Source: Clostridia bacterium (GTDB lineage: Bacteria; Bacillota; DULZ01). Taken from it: a stretch of DNA of 57,137 nucleotides. Made by a program: the position numbers and the translations under genes. The DNA lies in NCBI GenBank assembly GCA_012840125.1, contig DULZ01000041.1, forward strand, positions 1 through 57,137, given 5' to 3'. The notes under the pieces were generated by a model. The model saw nothing but the letters and a program-made list of their open reading frames with translations, was not told where the DNA came from and ran no database searches. Positions 43,834 through 50,022 of the stretch are shown here, in pieces. Positions within the stretch are counted from its first letter, which is position 1; each line of letters starts with the position of its first letter.

Positions 43834-44382
43834 ATGTCCAAAGAATCCATGAAACTGCCCGGCATCGGTTTACGCAACATAAAAACGGCCTTGGGAGTAT
43901 TCCTGTGCATCTTGCTGTACGGTATACTCCAAAGGCCCTACGCTTTTTTTGCCTGCATTTCCGTGGTGATCTGCCTGAGCAATACCATGGAAAGTTCCTA
44001 CCAAACGGGCAAGGAGCGGATGATCAGCACGGCGGCCGGGGGCCTTTTGGGTATTCCGTTCTTGTACTTCAAGAACTCGGTCATGGAGTGGTTGAGCTTT
44101 CAGGCCGTGGAAGCCGTCGTTGTAAGCCTGGGCATTGTTTTACTCATTTACCTTTTTAACCTGTTGGGCCTTAAAGGAGCCATTGTGAATGCTTGCGTCG
44201 TGTTTTTGTCCGTAGTCATCAATTTAAGCGATACCCAGCAGCTGCTGTCGCCCTTCATGTATGCCGTGAATCGCATCATTGATAATGCAGCCGGTATTGT
44301 GGTGGCCCTGGCGGTGAACAAGTACTGCTTTCCGGTAAAAGGGGAGAGCTGCCATGGTGCCGGGCAGGAGGAGCGCATGTAA
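43834..44382 (+). CDS. FUSC/aromatic acid exporter family membrane protein
   Basis: A 182-residue protein with four to six hydrophobic helices. The N-terminus GLRNIKTALGVFLCILLYG and the later block YAVNRIIDNAAGIVVALAVN match the ArAE_1/DUF939-like (YgaE/YqjA) group of half-length FUSC proteins in Firmicutes. Transport of aromatic or other organic anions is assumed from the family. It lies 32 bases after serS and could be read through from it. Confidence 0.75.
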   Translation: MSKESMKLPGIGLRNIKTALGVFLCILLYGILQRPYAFFACISVVICLSNTMESSYQTGKERMISTAAGGLLGIPFLYFKNSVMEWLSFQAVEAVVVSLGIVLLIYLFNLLGLKGAIVNACVVFLSVVINLSDTQQLLSPFMYAVNRIIDNAAGIVVALAVNKYCFPVKGESCHGAGQEERM

Positions 44383-44456: not shown

Positions 44457-44545
44457 GGAGGGGTGTCCGAGTGGTTTAAGGAGCTGGTCTTGAAAACCAG
44501 TGACTCCGCAAGGGGCCGTGGGTTCGAATCCCACCCCCTCCGCCA
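44457..44545 (+). tRNA. tRNA-Ser (anticodon TGA)
   Basis: Acceptor GGAGGGG pairs with CCCCTCC, followed by G and encoded CCA. The anticodon arm is CTGGT-CTTGAAA-ACCAG, the T loop TTCGAAT is present and there is a long class II variable arm. Confidence 0.97.
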
Positions 44546-44574
44546 TTTTTCCTAAGAATTACAATCTAATATGA

Positions 44575-44603
44575 TTGATTTCTTTTTTTTGTTGTGCTAT
44601 ACT
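44575..44603 (+). promoter_or_regulatory. Promoter of the tRNA-Ser(GCT)/tRNA-Arg(ACG) pair
   Basis: TTGATT (44575-44580) and TATACT (44598-44603) are separated by 17 bases, 20 bases upstream of the second tRNA-Ser. Confidence 0.65.
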
Positions 44604-44622
44604 ATCTTTGCATTGATTCCGC

Positions 44623-44717
44623 GGAGAGATGGCCGAGTAGGTCGAAGGCGATCGCCTGCTAAGCGATTATACGGGCTAAAACCTGTATCGAGGGTTCGAA
44701 TCCCTCTCTCTCCGCCA
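44623..44717 (+). tRNA. tRNA-Ser (anticodon GCT)
   Basis: Acceptor GGAGAGA pairs with TCTCTCC, followed by G and CCA. The anticodon arm is ATCGC-CTGCTAA-GCGAT, with a long variable arm and T loop TTCGAAT. Confidence 0.97.
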
Positions 44718-44720
44718 CAC

Positions 44721-44797
44721 GCGCCCGTAGCTCAACCGGATAGAGTAACTGACTACGAATCAGGAGGTTGGAGGTTCGAGTCCTCCCGGGCGCGCCA
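44721..44797 (+). tRNA. tRNA-Arg (anticodon ACG)
   Basis: Acceptor GCGCCCG pairs with CGGGCGC, followed by G and CCA. The anticodon loop is CTACGAA and the T loop TTCGAGT. It lies only three bases after tRNA-Ser(GCT), so the two are co-transcribed. Confidence 0.97.
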
Positions 44798-44900
44798 CAC
44801 GATGACTACCAAAACAGTAGCAGACGGCTAGGAGTGACAAGGTATTTCGCCATGACTTCTAGTCTTTATTTCACTTTAGAGAAAGATTAAAACTCGATAT

Positions 44901-44977
44901 GTTTCCGTAGCTCAGCTGGATAGAGCAACCGCCTCCTAAGCGGTAGGTCGTGGGTTCGAATCCCGCCGGGAACACCA
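44901..44977 (+). tRNA. tRNA-Arg (anticodon CCT)
   Basis: Acceptor GTTTCCG pairs with CGGGAAC (with one G-T pair), followed by A and CCA. The anticodon arm is CCGC-CTCCTAA-GCGG and the T loop TTCGAAT. Confidence 0.96.
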
Positions 44978-44986
44978 TCCGTACCG

Positions 44987-45018
44987 GTCCCAAGGCTTGA
45001 AGCCTTGGGACTTTTTTT
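44987..45018 (+). terminator. Terminator after tRNA-Arg(CCT)
   Basis: GTCCCAAGGCT (44987-44997) pairs perfectly with AGCCTTGGGAC (45001-45011), a three-base loop, then seven Ts. Confidence 0.93.
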
Positions 45019-45029
45019 CTGGGGGATTA

Positions 45030-45058
45030 TTGACAGGGGGAAAAAGATGTTATATACT
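45030..45058 (+). promoter_or_regulatory. Vegetative promoter of the feoA operon
   Basis: TTGACA (45030-45035) and TATACT (45053-45058) are separated by 17 bases; the start would be near 45065, giving a leader of about 70 bases. Confidence 0.8.
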
Positions 45059-45068
45059 ACAAACAAAA

Positions 45069-45082
45069 TTAGATCAGACTAA
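45069..45082 (+). promoter_or_regulatory. Candidate metal-repressor operator at feoA
   Basis: TTAGATCAGACTAA, flanked by AAA and GTTT, is an imperfect dyad whose TTAG/CTAA half-sites resemble DtxR/IdeR-family iron boxes. It starts about four bases after the predicted transcription start, the right place for repression by iron. Confidence 0.4.
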
Positions 45083-45134
45083 GTTTATTAGTTAAACATA
45101 AATTCAGTTTGAGAGGAAAAGGGGGAGGAGCAGT

Positions 45135-45389
45135 ATGAGTATCAATCTTGCCCTTAAGTATGAGCGGCCGGTAAGATCGTCCGTCTATCATGCGCCGAAC
45201 AACAAAAACTATGTGGTGCGTGACGTTCCGAACATAAGTTTACTAAAAAGTCTGGGTATTAGAAAAAACAGTCAGGTTTATAAAAAGCGCACTTACCGGC
45301 TGGGCGGTCCGGTGCTCTTAGTGGTGGATGCCAGGGAAATTGCCCTCGGCAAGGATATTGCCGAACAGATCATCGTCGAGGAGGCATGA
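45135..45389 (+). CDS. feoA: FeoA-domain ferrous iron transport protein
   Basis: An 84-residue protein ending in an SH3-like FeoA domain: ISLLKSLGIRKNSQVYKKRT near residue 38 and GGPVLLVVDAREIALGKDIA near 58. FeoA is a small cytoplasmic partner needed for FeoB-dependent Fe2+ uptake. The N-terminal 35 residues are longer than in minimal FeoA. The ATG has GGAGG six bases upstream; feoB starts six bases after the stop. Confidence 0.88.
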   Translation: MSINLALKYERPVRSSVYHAPNNKNYVVRDVPNISLLKSLGIRKNSQVYKKRTYRLGGPVLLVVDAREIALGKDIAEQIIVEEA

Positions 45390-45395
45390 CGGCCC

Positions 45396-47183
45396 GTGAG
45401 CAGTTGTCATGACGTGAACTACGGCAGCGGTCCCGGCAATCCTCACAAGACCATCTTACTCATGGGCAATCCTAACGTCGGCAAGAGTGTCTTTTTCACC
45501 TGGATGACCGGAGTGGATGCCATCAGTTCCAATTACCCCGGTACTACCGTGTCTTACTTGGAAGGCAAACTCACCATCAACAACGAGACTTATACCCTGG
45601 TCGATGTGCCCGGCGTCTATGCCCTGGAAGCATCCTCAGAGGCGGAGGCGGTAGCCCTGAAAATCCTGGCACAAGGTGCCGCCGCCATTATCTGTGTGCT
45701 GGATGCCACCAACCTGACCAGGAACGTGAAGCTGGCCTTGGAATTGCAGCGTTACCGGGTTCCCACGATCTATGCCCTGAACATGATGGATGTGGCTCAA
45801 AGACACGGGACGGAAATAAACGTCAAACTCCTGGCCCAGGAGTTGGGTGCTCCCGTTATTCCCACCGTTGCCGTGAAGCAGCAGGGTTTCCCTGAATTAA
45901 AGGCTGCCCTGGAGGAGGTGCTGGCAGGCCGGGCGCCGCAAGGTTGCGCCTGCGGCTGCAGTGAGTGTGGGTGTGGGGCGGCCGCCGCTGAGGAAATCAG
46001 TCTTTGGGACAGGGCGGCAGAAATCACCGCCCGGGTGAGAAAAAGCAAACAAGAACAAAAACTCAGCTTTCTGGATCGCCTAGGGGAATGGATGATCCGG
46101 CCTTTTCCCGGCATTTTTATTTCCCTGTCGGTGATGCTGCTTTGTCTAGCGGTTATTGTCTTCGGTGGCAAAGGGCTGCGGGCGGCGCTGCTTTTGCCCC
46201 TGGTCAATCAAGTAATCGTTCCCTTCTTAAGAACACTTTTTACCTCCTTTGTGCCAGAGGGAATGCTGCTCAATGTGCTAGTCGGTGAATACGGTATCTT
46301 TGTGATTAGTTTCGAATGGATTCTGGCTCTTGTTTTACCTTATGTGTTTCTCTTCTATGTGGTGTTTTCTCTGTTGGAGGATACCGGTTATCTCCCCCGG
46401 GTCAGCGTCATGTTTGATAACCTGATGCGCAAGATCGGGCTGCAGGGCGGGAGCATCATCAGCATGATGATGGGGTACGGTTGTGCCGTGCCGGCGATTA
46501 TCGGGACCAGGACGGCCACCACCAGGAAAGAAAGACTCATGGTTACTACGGCGGTATGTTTTGCCGTGCCCTGTATTTCCCAATCAGGTGCTTTGATTAG
46601 TCTACTGGGCAGCCACTCCATGGGTTTGGTGGCAGCTATTTACTTGTTTTCCCTGTTCATTCTGGTCCTGGTTACCGTCGTCACCGGCAAAGTTCTGAAA
46701 GGGCAGTTGGATCCGCTGATCATCGAAGTGCCGAACCTGCTCATGCCGAACCGCAAAACTTATTTCAAGAAGCTGTCCATCCGCATGAAGCATTTTCTGG
46801 CGGAAGCAGAAGTGCCGATGCTCCTGGCCGTATTCATCGCTGCTTTGTTGAAGGAAACAGGTTTATTGGATTTTATTGCCGTTTATTTTGAACCCCTGGT
46901 CCAAGGCTGGTTGGGCATGCCCAGGGAAGCGGTGATGGCCCTGATTCTAGGTATTGTCAGGCGGGAAATGGCGGCAGCGCCCCTTTTGGCGTTGGATTTG
47001 ACTCCGCTCCAGCTTTTCGTGGGGGGTACGGTAGCTTTGCTGTACCTGCCGTGCCTGTCCGTTTTCGGTATTTTAAGCAAGGAATTCGGCACCTTCACGG
47101 CGGTAGTTATTGCTCTGTCCACTACCCTGACGGCGTTTTTGTTGGGAGGCATGATCAATCATATCGGGCTGTTATTTATCTGA
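45396..47183 (+). CDS. feoB: Ferrous iron transporter FeoB (short form with Cys-rich insert)
   Basis: A 595-residue GTP-dependent Fe2+ permease. The G domain has GNPNVGKS near residue 24, YPGTTVSY, DVPGVYAL and NMMD near 130. The membrane part has the gate motif GYGCAVPAIIGTRTATTRKE near 365 and a second gate block near 430-520. It is shorter than the usual 650-750 residues. A five-cysteine run, CACGCSECGC (residues about 184-193), lies between the G domain and the membrane part. The start is GTG after GAGGAGG. Confidence 0.94.
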   Translation: MSSCHDVNYGSGPGNPHKTILLMGNPNVGKSVFFTWMTGVDAISSNYPGTTVSYLEGKLTINNETYTLVDVPGVYALEASSEAEAVALKILAQGAAAIICVLDATNLTRNVKLALELQRYRVPTIYALNMMDVAQRHGTEINVKLLAQELGAPVIPTVAVKQQGFPELKAALEEVLAGRAPQGCACGCSECGCGAAAAEEISLWDRAAEITARVRKSKQEQKLSFLDRLGEWMIRPFPGIFISLSVMLLCLAVIVFGGKGLRAALLLPLVNQVIVPFLRTLFTSFVPEGMLLNVLVGEYGIFVISFEWILALVLPYVFLFYVVFSLLEDTGYLPRVSVMFDNLMRKIGLQGGSIISMMMGYGCAVPAIIGTRTATTRKERLMVTTAVCFAVPCISQSGALISLLGSHSMGLVAAIYLFSLFILVLVTVVTGKVLKGQLDPLIIEVPNLLMPNRKTYFKKLSIRMKHFLAEAEVPMLLAVFIAALLKETGLLDFIAVYFEPLVQGWLGMPREAVMALILGIVRREMAAAPLLALDLTPLQLFVGGTVALLYLPCLSVFGILSKEFGTFTAVVIALSTTLTAFLLGGMINHIGLLFI

Positions 47184-47200
47184 TATAGGAGCAATGAGCG

Positions 47201-47842
47201 ATGTTGATCACCTTAAACCAGCTTACCGGGTTTACCAGGACCATAGAGGATTGGGCCGTTCATAACAGCTTAATGTACAAATTGGGCTATCTATACTATC
47301 GCGCCGTGGTGCAAAAAGAAGCGGCCCTGGCCGGTATTAGGGCGGAAGACAAAGTTTTATGCATCGGAGGGGGGCCTTGCCCGTTTACCGGCATCATTAT
47401 CCATCAGTTGACCCGGGCACCGGTGACGATTATTGATCAAGACCCGGCCAGCGTGGACCGGGCATGCCGGATCGTGCACCGGTTAGGTTTAGAATCAGGT
47501 GTGCAGGTCCGGTGTCAAAACGGCCGGGATGTGGATGTAAGGGAATTCTCCGTAATCCATTTGGCCATGCAAGTGGCTCCCTTCCGGGAAGTATTTCAAA
47601 AGGTGCGGGAAAACTGCCGGGCGGAAGCCAGGATCCTCGTGCGCTTACCGAAGGTATCCCTGAAGTGTCTTTACGGCGATCCTGATCTCAGTTACTTCCG
47701 CGGCTGCAGGCAGATCAAGCATGGCAGGAGCCGCAATATAGGCAGTACCGCACTTTATGTTAAAGCAGGTAAGGGTTATGTACAGGATACTGGGTATCAT
47801 TCTTTTGGCGCTATTTCTCCTTCTTATCACCCCTCAGCTTGA
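47201..47842 (+). CDS. Nicotianamine synthase-like methyltransferase-fold protein
   Basis: A 213-residue protein with a Rossmann-type SAM-binding core: VLCIGGGPCPFTGIIIHQL near residue 51, an acidic TIIDQDPASVDRA near 75, then IHLAMQVAPFREVF near 118. The order and sequence resemble the archaeal nicotianamine synthase from Methanothermobacter and, more distantly, staphylopine synthase CntL, which transfer aminobutyrate from SAM to build metallophores. No opine dehydrogenase partner is nearby. The gene is 17 bases after feoB, so a metal-related role is likely but unproven. It could also be an ordinary methyltransferase. It overlaps the next gene by 65 bases. Confidence 0.65.
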   Translation: MLITLNQLTGFTRTIEDWAVHNSLMYKLGYLYYRAVVQKEAALAGIRAEDKVLCIGGGPCPFTGIIIHQLTRAPVTIIDQDPASVDRACRIVHRLGLESGVQVRCQNGRDVDVREFSVIHLAMQVAPFREVFQKVRENCRAEARILVRLPKVSLKCLYGDPDLSYFRGCRQIKHGRSRNIGSTALYVKAGKGYVQDTGYHSFGAISPSYHPSA

Positions 47843-48755
47843 ATGGCAGGCTTTAGGCAAGGCAATCCGGCAAGTGCCCTTTAGCTCCTTACTGGGTTTG
47901 GTTTTGCTGCAACTGGTTACCCAACTGCTGCTGAACTGCCAGTGGTGCAGTCTGGGTAAAACTCTCCAGTCCCCCGTGAGTTTTAATAAAATGCTTTATA
48001 TTAACTCACAGGGCACTTTGCTGGAATCCATTACTCCCGGCGCCAAGATAGGCGGTGAAGTGGTCAGGGTATTGCTTTTAAAGAACATCGCCGGTTATTC
48101 CGCCGCGAAAGCGGTGTCCCTGGTGACCATCCAGAAACTGTTCAGTTTTAGTTCCTTTTTCTTATTAAGCCTGGCCGCTCTATTCCATATCACCGGCAAA
48201 ATCAGTTATTTTGACGGGCCGGCCCTTGTTAAAGGGACGGTTTACACGGCGCTGGTTTTATTAATCACGGTTTTTATGGCAGCGCTCCTGTATCCCGACC
48301 GGATGCTGGTCATGCTCAAGAAAAGAAATGAAAATTCTTTCCTGGTGGAAATCTTGACCCACATGACCGTTTTCCGGCAGCACCGGGGCGCCTGGTGGCG
48401 GCAGTTGGGCCTGTCCTTCCTCATCTGGCTGCTGTTTCCCCTGAAGTTCTGGCTGCTGGTGAGAGTCTTTACCCATGAGGTGGACCTTTTCACCCTGGCC
48501 GGCATCGCCATGGTGGCCTACCTGGCCGCCATGCTGCCAGTGGCACCGGGTGGACTGGGCAGTTTTGAAGTCACCATGTCCGGTTTGCTGCTGCTTTTGG
48601 GTCTCCCGGCTGCCGATGTGGTAGTGATTACGGTGCTATTCCGGTTTATTACTTTTTGGCTGGTGGTCCTCCTCAGCTTATTGTTTGTGGCGGTTTGGAA
48701 AATCCTGTGCAAGGAGGGAAACCCGGATGGGCCGCTTCAACAATCCTGTTCTTAA
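47778..48755 (+). CDS. Lysylphosphatidylglycerol synthase TM-region/flippase-like membrane protein
   Basis: A 325-residue protein with about eight hydrophobic helices. SITPGAKIGGEVVRVLLLK near residue 85 and AAMLPVAPGGLGSFEVTMSG near 255 are the two conserved blocks of the LPG_synthase_TM (DUF/YbhN/AglD) family. These proteins resemble the flippase half of MprF but lack the aminoacyl-transferase half; a lipid-handling function is likely. ATG 47778 follows GGTAAGGG; the frame opens at 47757. It overlaps both neighbours, so the run is one coupled operon. Confidence 0.82.
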   Translation: MYRILGIILLALFLLLITPQLEWQALGKAIRQVPFSSLLGLVLLQLVTQLLLNCQWCSLGKTLQSPVSFNKMLYINSQGTLLESITPGAKIGGEVVRVLLLKNIAGYSAAKAVSLVTIQKLFSFSSFFLLSLAALFHITGKISYFDGPALVKGTVYTALVLLITVFMAALLYPDRMLVMLKKRNENSFLVEILTHMTVFRQHRGAWWRQLGLSFLIWLLFPLKFWLLVRVFTHEVDLFTLAGIAMVAYLAAMLPVAPGGLGSFEVTMSGLLLLLGLPAADVVVITVLFRFITFWLVVLLSLLFVAVWKILCKEGNPDGPLQQSCS

Positions 48756-49338
48756 ACACTTGCCCAATGCCATCACCGTGACCAATATGGTCTTGGGCCT
48801 GTCGGTGATCTTTCTCGTCATTGGGGATCAGGGGAGGGCGGCGGTTAATGGCTGCTGTCTTTTGATCCTGTTGGGGGCCGTGCTGGATTATGTGGACGGC
48901 AGGCTGGCCAGGTACTTGCAGGCTGCCAGTGACTTCGGTAAACAGATGGACTCCTTTGCTGACCTGGTAACTTTCGGGCTGGCTCCGGTGGCCTTGTTGT
49001 GGTCTTTGGAACCGGCCGGCACCGGTGCTCCGGCTTTTTTACTTTTGGCGGTCTATCCCCTGGCCGGTGCGTTCCGTCTGGCCAGGTACAATACCGGCGA
49101 CTACCGGGATTATTTTCTAGGCTTGCCCATTACCCTGGCCGGTGCCGGCCTGGCGGTGTATATCCTGGTGTATGAAAACTTCCTTAGGGTGCATAAGGTG
49201 CCGGTGTTAAATGTTATCTCGGTTATCATCTTGCTGGTCTTGTCCCTATTGATGGTCAGTAACGTCAAAGTGCCCAGGCGATTGAGCCTGGGCGGTATGC
49301 TGAACCACCATCATTTTTTCAGCCTGCGCATGAAATAG
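48727..49338 (+). CDS. pssA: CDP-diacylglycerol-serine O-phosphatidyltransferase
   Basis: A 203-residue CDP-alcohol phosphatidyltransferase with about six helices. The catalytic motif D-G-x2-A-R-x8-G-x3-D-x3-D is complete, from DGRLAR near residue 59 to FGKQMDSFAD near 72. The early block LPNAITVTNMVLG is typical of the phosphatidylserine synthase branch. ATG 48727 follows AAGGAGGG and overlaps the upstream gene. No decarboxylase gene is adjacent. Confidence 0.9.
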   Translation: MGRFNNPVLKHLPNAITVTNMVLGLSVIFLVIGDQGRAAVNGCCLLILLGAVLDYVDGRLARYLQAASDFGKQMDSFADLVTFGLAPVALLWSLEPAGTGAPAFLLLAVYPLAGAFRLARYNTGDYRDYFLGLPITLAGAGLAVYILVYENFLRVHKVPVLNVISVIILLVLSLLMVSNVKVPRRLSLGGMLNHHHFFSLRMK

Positions 49339-49346
49339 CCCTGATG

Positions 49347-49411
49347 CCGCCTGTCAATTATTAACTTGGGCCTTTTGTGGGGCGGTTTTAATAGACAGGC
49401 GGGGATTTTTT
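49347..49411 (+). terminator. Long-loop terminator after pssA
   Basis: CCGCCTGTC (49347-49355) pairs with GACAGGCGG (49394-49402) across a 38-base loop; GGA and six Ts follow. It closes the feoA-pssA run. Confidence 0.6.
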
Positions 49412-49927: not shown

Positions 49928-50022
49928 GGAGAGATGGCCGAGTCCGGTTTAAGGCGCACGACTCGAAATCGTGTGAGGGTCCAAAAGGCTCTCCGTGGGT
50001 TCGAATCCCACTCTCTCCGCCA
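49928..50022 (+). tRNA. tRNA-Ser (anticodon CGA)
   Basis: Acceptor GGAGAGA pairs with TCTCTCC, followed by G and CCA. The anticodon arm is CACGA-CTCGAAA-TCGTG, with a long variable arm and T loop TTCGAAT. It is directly downstream of tadA and probably shares its transcript. Confidence 0.97.

Follow-up and report, generated by a model that had tools for sequence, protein, structure and literature searches.

The DNA that we analysed, called the window throughout, is a stretch of 57,137 nt of contig DULZ01000041.1 from a Clostridia bacterium (GCA_012840125.1), read along its forward strand. In 4.2 kb of the + strand, five genes form one tight array: feoA, feoB, a gene for a nicotianamine synthase (NAS)-like protein, a flippase-like gene and pssA. 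The features are as follows.

44986-45012, tRNA-Arg terminator, preceding the operon promoter
45030..45058, + strand, sigma-70-type promoter TTGACA-17-TATACT (11/12 match to consensus), downstream of the tRNA-Arg terminator
45069..45082, + strand, DtxR/IdeR-type iron box TTAGATCAGACTAA, extended AAATTAGATCAGACTAAGTT, directly past the -10
45135..45389, + strand, feoA, 84 aa (PF04023 35.9 bits, above cut-off)
45396..47183, + strand, feoB, 595 aa (TIGR00437 323 bits, above cut-off; G1 motif GNPNVGKS)
47201..47842, + strand, short NAS-like protein, predicted aminocarboxypropyl transferase, 213 aa (PF03059 30.3 bits, cut-off 27.1)
47778..48755, + strand, MprF-type flippase domain protein, 325 aa (LPG_synthase_TM PF03706 152 bits)
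48727..49338, + strand, pssA, CDP-diacylglycerol-serine phosphatidyltransferase, 203 aa (PF01066 67 bits)
49347..49411, + strand, intrinsic terminator, with a 9-bp outer stem and inner hairpin (49347-49402) followed by T6 (fold z -2.8)

Six bp separate feoA from feoB and 17 bp separate feoB from the NAS-like gene; the NAS-like and flippase genes overlap by 65 bp, and the flippase gene and pssA by 29 bp. The first-pass annotation had described five packed genes with one terminator at their end, and all of them do lie at these coordinates, between a sigma-70 promoter and a hairpin with its T6. Its reading of the array as a single metal/membrane operon is also supported. There is one promoter, a search between 45058 and 49392 gave no forward promoter-like site within the operon, and the linkage is conserved. 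Immediately 5' of the operon are four tRNA genes (Ser-TGA, Ser-GCT, Arg-ACG and Arg-CCT, window 44457-44977), and 5' of these a short aromatic acid exporter/FUSC-type membrane protein (ArAE_1, window 43834-44382). Another tRNA gene, Ser-CGA, is found 3' of tadA (window 49928-50022).

FeoB is one of the main routes by which anaerobes import iron, and little is understood of how Fe(II) is collected for it. We know of no chelator that is generally assigned to FeoB. In the operon, the FeoA domain and the G domain, Gate and FeoB_C parts of FeoB were all matched. When the 54 linked FeoBs are aligned, an N-terminal Cys is kept in 38 and an N-terminal His in 36, and many of these relatives carry a Cys-rich insert past the G domain. 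Two other FeoB-type G domains are encoded in the window's genome (G000 C73 and C48); about 2.7 kb separate the C48 copy from a DtxR-family repressor.

By its sequence and predicted structure, the 213-aa protein is a member of the nicotianamine synthase superfamily. In the PDB, the sequence matches thermonicotianamine synthase (2e-14) and CntL (4e-6) best. A profile built from 40 relatives gives MtNAS 90 bits and CntL 73, whereas no enzyme annotated as a methyltransferase scores above 28.5 bits. The AF2 model (pLDDT 89) places MtNAS chains at ranks 1-4 of a Foldseek search against the PDB (E 3e-12) and CntL at rank 9. The kinship suggested in the first-pass annotation is therefore borne out: the protein is no ordinary methyltransferase, an identity that the Pfam NAS match, the profile scores and the top Foldseek matches rule out. 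Residues E16, Y33, E40, L53, G56, G58, P61, D79 and R148 are invariant in 40/40 relatives. Y33 aligns to Y107 of MtNAS and E16 to the CntL-type Glu, while the pairing of E16 with MtNAS E81 is ambiguous because the spacing differs. The catalytic Glu and Tyr are E81/Y107 in MtNAS and E77/Y106 in AtNAS1 (residue roles in PMC10491745, PMC10248798), and in AtNAS1 both are indispensable (PMC10248798).

The two-domain architecture of the classical enzymes is not found. Most of the classical N-terminal domain is absent and its last two helices remain; because the full domain is missing, we class the protein as a short NAS-like variant and not as a classical NAS. The short NAS-like proteins group together, with moderate support (78/75), in a tree that also includes four full-length relatives. 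A second subclade, NAS2 (support 99/97), includes genes at L067 8537-9121, L070 7217-7921 and L074 9445-10062, of which those in L070 and L074 adjoin or are fused to a flippase.

The fourth gene product was also compared with solved structures. A sequence-only PDB search with the flippase profile gave no match; with the AF2 model (pLDDT 88.5), ranks 1-6 of the Foldseek search against the PDB are all MprF, and the next match has an E of 0.13. The 325-aa protein stops after the membrane domain, and the C-terminal aminoacyl-PG synthase domain is absent. E264 is invariant and R289 nearly so; the two may correspond, at the level of the motif only, to the gate pair E280/R304 of R. tropici MprF (PMC8131360), with a spacing of 25 vs 24. 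In a tree with seven generic paralogues, the linked flippases fall into a group of their own, with moderate support (75/90) and some long branches. MprF exports head-group-modified phospholipids outward (PMC8131360), and the P. aeruginosa protein scrambles many lipids (PMC11980842).

Our results also show that this gene combination is kept well beyond a single genome. A homologue of the NAS-like protein occurs in 46 of the 399 genomes of our phylum sample, and a profile search of genome contigs gave 35 loci in Bacillota and one Izimaplasma, with an alignment so narrow that it does not sample distant phyla fairly. No match was found in the viral contigs searched. Among 64 non-redundant loci (Bacillota and one Izimaplasma), counting partners within 4 kb of the NAS-like gene on the same strand, FeoB is present at 58 and the flippase at 55; FeoB, flippase and PssA occur together at 36. 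FeoB and flippase recur jointly at 54/64, which rules out chance linkage and confirms the conserved neighbourhood that the first-pass annotation had asked about. In an alternative layout two NAS-like genes lie beside the flippase, followed by FeoA and FeoB.

Two fusions join these partners, each seen in one case and each with both domains above the Pfam cut-offs. In the single-contig genome G307, the flippase and a second NAS form one 571-aa ORF; in G479, of the same genus, they are separate genes. On the MAG contig L083, the flippase and PssA form one 527-aa ORF; this one may be a frameshift artefact, produced by a single indel where two genes overlap. A count of open frames had hinted at flippase-NAS fusions in G434 and G427 as well, but there the genes are separate.

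Some NAS-like genes have other neighbours. The second NAS-like gene of G263 (L056 6766-11727) has a ZnuA-type ABC transporter, a DtxR-family repressor and a VTT-domain (DedA-type) membrane protein as neighbours, and is possibly a zinc or manganese version. Others lie near Opp/Nik-type ABC transporters (L057 7969-15999, L074 1-5219, L121 6341-11001), in L057 with an EamA transporter too. Among the genes read at these last three loci there is no opine dehydrogenase.

Iron-type boxes recur upstream of the genes, far more often than chance would give. Sites of the form TTAG-N6-CTAA (DtxR/IdeR type) occur in 18/54 orthologous upstream regions vs 0.34 expected, and Fur-like boxes (at least 13/19) in 30/54 vs 5.5, both expectations coming from a simple base shuffle. 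DtxR-family or Fur genes adjoin some of the clusters, and the window's genome has two DtxR-family repressors above cut-off.

The last gene, pssA, shows a pattern of its own. The protein has an intact D-x2-DG-x2-AR-x8-G-x3-D-x3-D motif and matches the PssA structure 7b1k (E=2e-13), with a TIGR00473 score of 98 bits, slightly below the cut-off of 107; the remaining PssA matches in the window's genome are far weaker. We examined 30 NAS-positive genomes. In 19 of them pssA lies in the cluster, and PS decarboxylase (Psd) occurs in 0/19, a set that includes the window's genome and a few incomplete drafts. In the other 11, where pssA lies outside the cluster, Psd occurs in 10; these are mostly genomes with both PssA and Psd, and hence PE synthesis is possible there, a point that weighs against the lipid model proposed below. 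In the window's genome, which is 97% complete, no Psd was found, and a role of PS as a mere PE precursor is not supported. When PssA is called at E below 1e-20 across the phylum sample, NAS is found in 21/23 PssA+/Psd- genomes (the 21 belonging to 11 families) vs 17/122 PssA+/Psd+ genomes (Fisher p 5e-13, a value that overstates independence, since the genomes are related and most are MAGs). Eight NAS-positive genomes of the sample, including G307 with its flippase-NAS fusion, have no PssA at this threshold. Therefore PS is not the acceptor in every genome, and its role as a universal acceptor is ruled out.

What could such an operon do? We tentatively favour an operon for iron starvation whose product is a lipid-anchored, nicotianamine-like chelator, and would give this interpretation nearly even confidence. 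The reading in which a NAS-type chelating head group on PS is displayed by the MprF-type flippase as a membrane-anchored metallophore and Fe(II) is handed to FeoB is possible, with somewhat less than even confidence. We infer the acceptor, the product, its flipping, its binding of metal and the delivery to FeoB as follows. PssA would make phosphatidylserine. Its head group is an amino acid whose amine is free, and in this it resembles glutamate, histidine and aminobutyrate, the acceptors that known NAS enzymes use. From SAM, the short NAS-like enzyme would then transfer at least one 3-amino-3-carboxypropyl group to this amine; where PS is absent, another amino-phospholipid could serve as acceptor. 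Finally, the flippase would expose the modified lipid, which would supply Fe(II) to FeoB.

By analogy, the acceptor is probably phosphatidylserine. Known NAS enzymes place aminocarboxypropyl groups onto the amines of amino acids (PMC10491745), and we favour aminocarboxypropyl-PS, or another modified amino-lipid, because PS offers an amine of this kind in its head group. The MprF-type flippase, the two fusions and the occurrence of pssA where PS decarboxylase is absent favour a lipid-borne product over a small soluble one. There is also a precedent for aminocarboxypropyl transfer onto a lipid in BtaA, which is not homologous to NAS (PMC10491745). What the first-pass annotation proposed is supported in part: the metal/membrane operon and the NAS kinship stand, and conserved linkage and iron-type sites are now added to them. 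For its small-molecule chelator as the product we find less support.

That product nevertheless belongs to the main rival of the lipid model. Here, the SAM-derived aminocarboxypropyl group handled by NAS would be coupled either to a free amino acid or to another such group, and a small chelator of the nicotianamine or xNA kind would result. The MprF-like protein would export this chelator or be an unrelated membrane support, and FeoB would import the released metal. We consider this unlikely, but some observations speak for it. Characterised NAS enzymes take soluble amine acceptors (PMC10491745), the eight NAS-positive genomes without PssA fit it, and the NAS-like copies that adjoin soluble-metallophore-type transporters (EamA, Opp/Nik ABC, ZnuABC) count against a lipid product. 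It does not sit easily with the core operon for the following reasons. First, the operon has no opine dehydrogenase, no exporter of a known metallophore type and no solute-binding importer; the partner is instead a protein of the MprF fold. Second, PssA tracks NAS where Psd is absent. Third, NAS and PssA have each been fused once to the flippase. A staphylopine-type opine cluster is ruled out, the CntM-type gene being absent: no CntM-type opine dehydrogenase lies beside the NAS-like gene among the window's neighbours or the neighbourhoods read. Three contrast loci from three genomes of one family (L114, L115 and L119), judged by reading, appear to be of the CntL/CntM type with a CntM-like neighbour and are quite different in appearance.

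One could also argue that the same lipid is made for surface charge or stress, or as membrane support for FeoB, and not for binding iron. The logic of MprF (PMC8131360) and the regularity with which lipid genes accompany a membrane transporter are in keeping with this, but the iron-type boxes and the near-constant FeoA/FeoB partner are not, and the NAS-family products characterised to date are metal chelators or their precursors (PMC10491745). We regard this explanation as improbable. Very improbable is an iron regulon with no chemical coupling, in which several membrane functions merely shift together under low iron: operons can hold loosely related genes and many clusters have no pssA, but the partners are kept over many families, the dedicated flippases form one group, and both the fusions and the PssA/Psd/NAS pattern speak against it.

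Returning to the lipid-anchored chelator, the conservation of the operon across many anaerobic Firmicutes suggests that a metal-binding group may be built onto a membrane lipid and may feed iron to the importer. If this is true, a new lipid class and a new way of capturing ferrous iron would be widespread among anaerobic Bacillota. A conserved set of FeoB, a metallophore-type enzyme and lipid genes would offer a direct and testable answer to how Fe(II) is gathered for FeoB. The lipid model would also give phosphatidylserine synthase a role in bacteria without PS decarboxylase, and extend the NAS family and the flippase logic of MprF to new chemistry. The component families are already known; in the open literature searched, we found no description of this gene combination, of the short form of NAS or of the product proposed here.

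Compared with known systems, the operon shares with opine-type metallophore clusters (staphylopine, CntKLM with an ABC importer) a NAS-like transferase in a metal-regulated operon, but its core has no CntK, CntM or Cnt importer. As in FeoAB uptake its FeoA and FeoB domains are standard; unlike there, FeoB is short, with the N-terminal Cys-His and the Cys-rich insert, and is one of three FeoB-type genes in the genome. With the NAS superfamily (plant NAS, MtNAS, CntL) the protein has in common the Rossmann SAM domain, the IGGGPxPxT motif, the equivalent of MtNAS Y107 and an invariant upstream Glu. It differs in length (about 190-215 aa vs about 260-320 aa) and in its partners, which are FeoB and a flippase, with no opine dehydrogenase. 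In the BtaA betaine-lipid pathway a SAM-derived aminocarboxypropyl group is likewise placed onto a lipid, as we propose for the short NAS, but BtaA is reported as non-homologous to NAS (PMC10491745) and its product is a betaine lipid. Finally, MprF has the same flippase fold and likewise couples a cytosolic head-group transferase to a flippase; in the operon, where aminoacyl-PG synthase domain and aminoacyl-tRNA chemistry are both missing from the flippase, the candidate transferase is the NAS-like enzyme.
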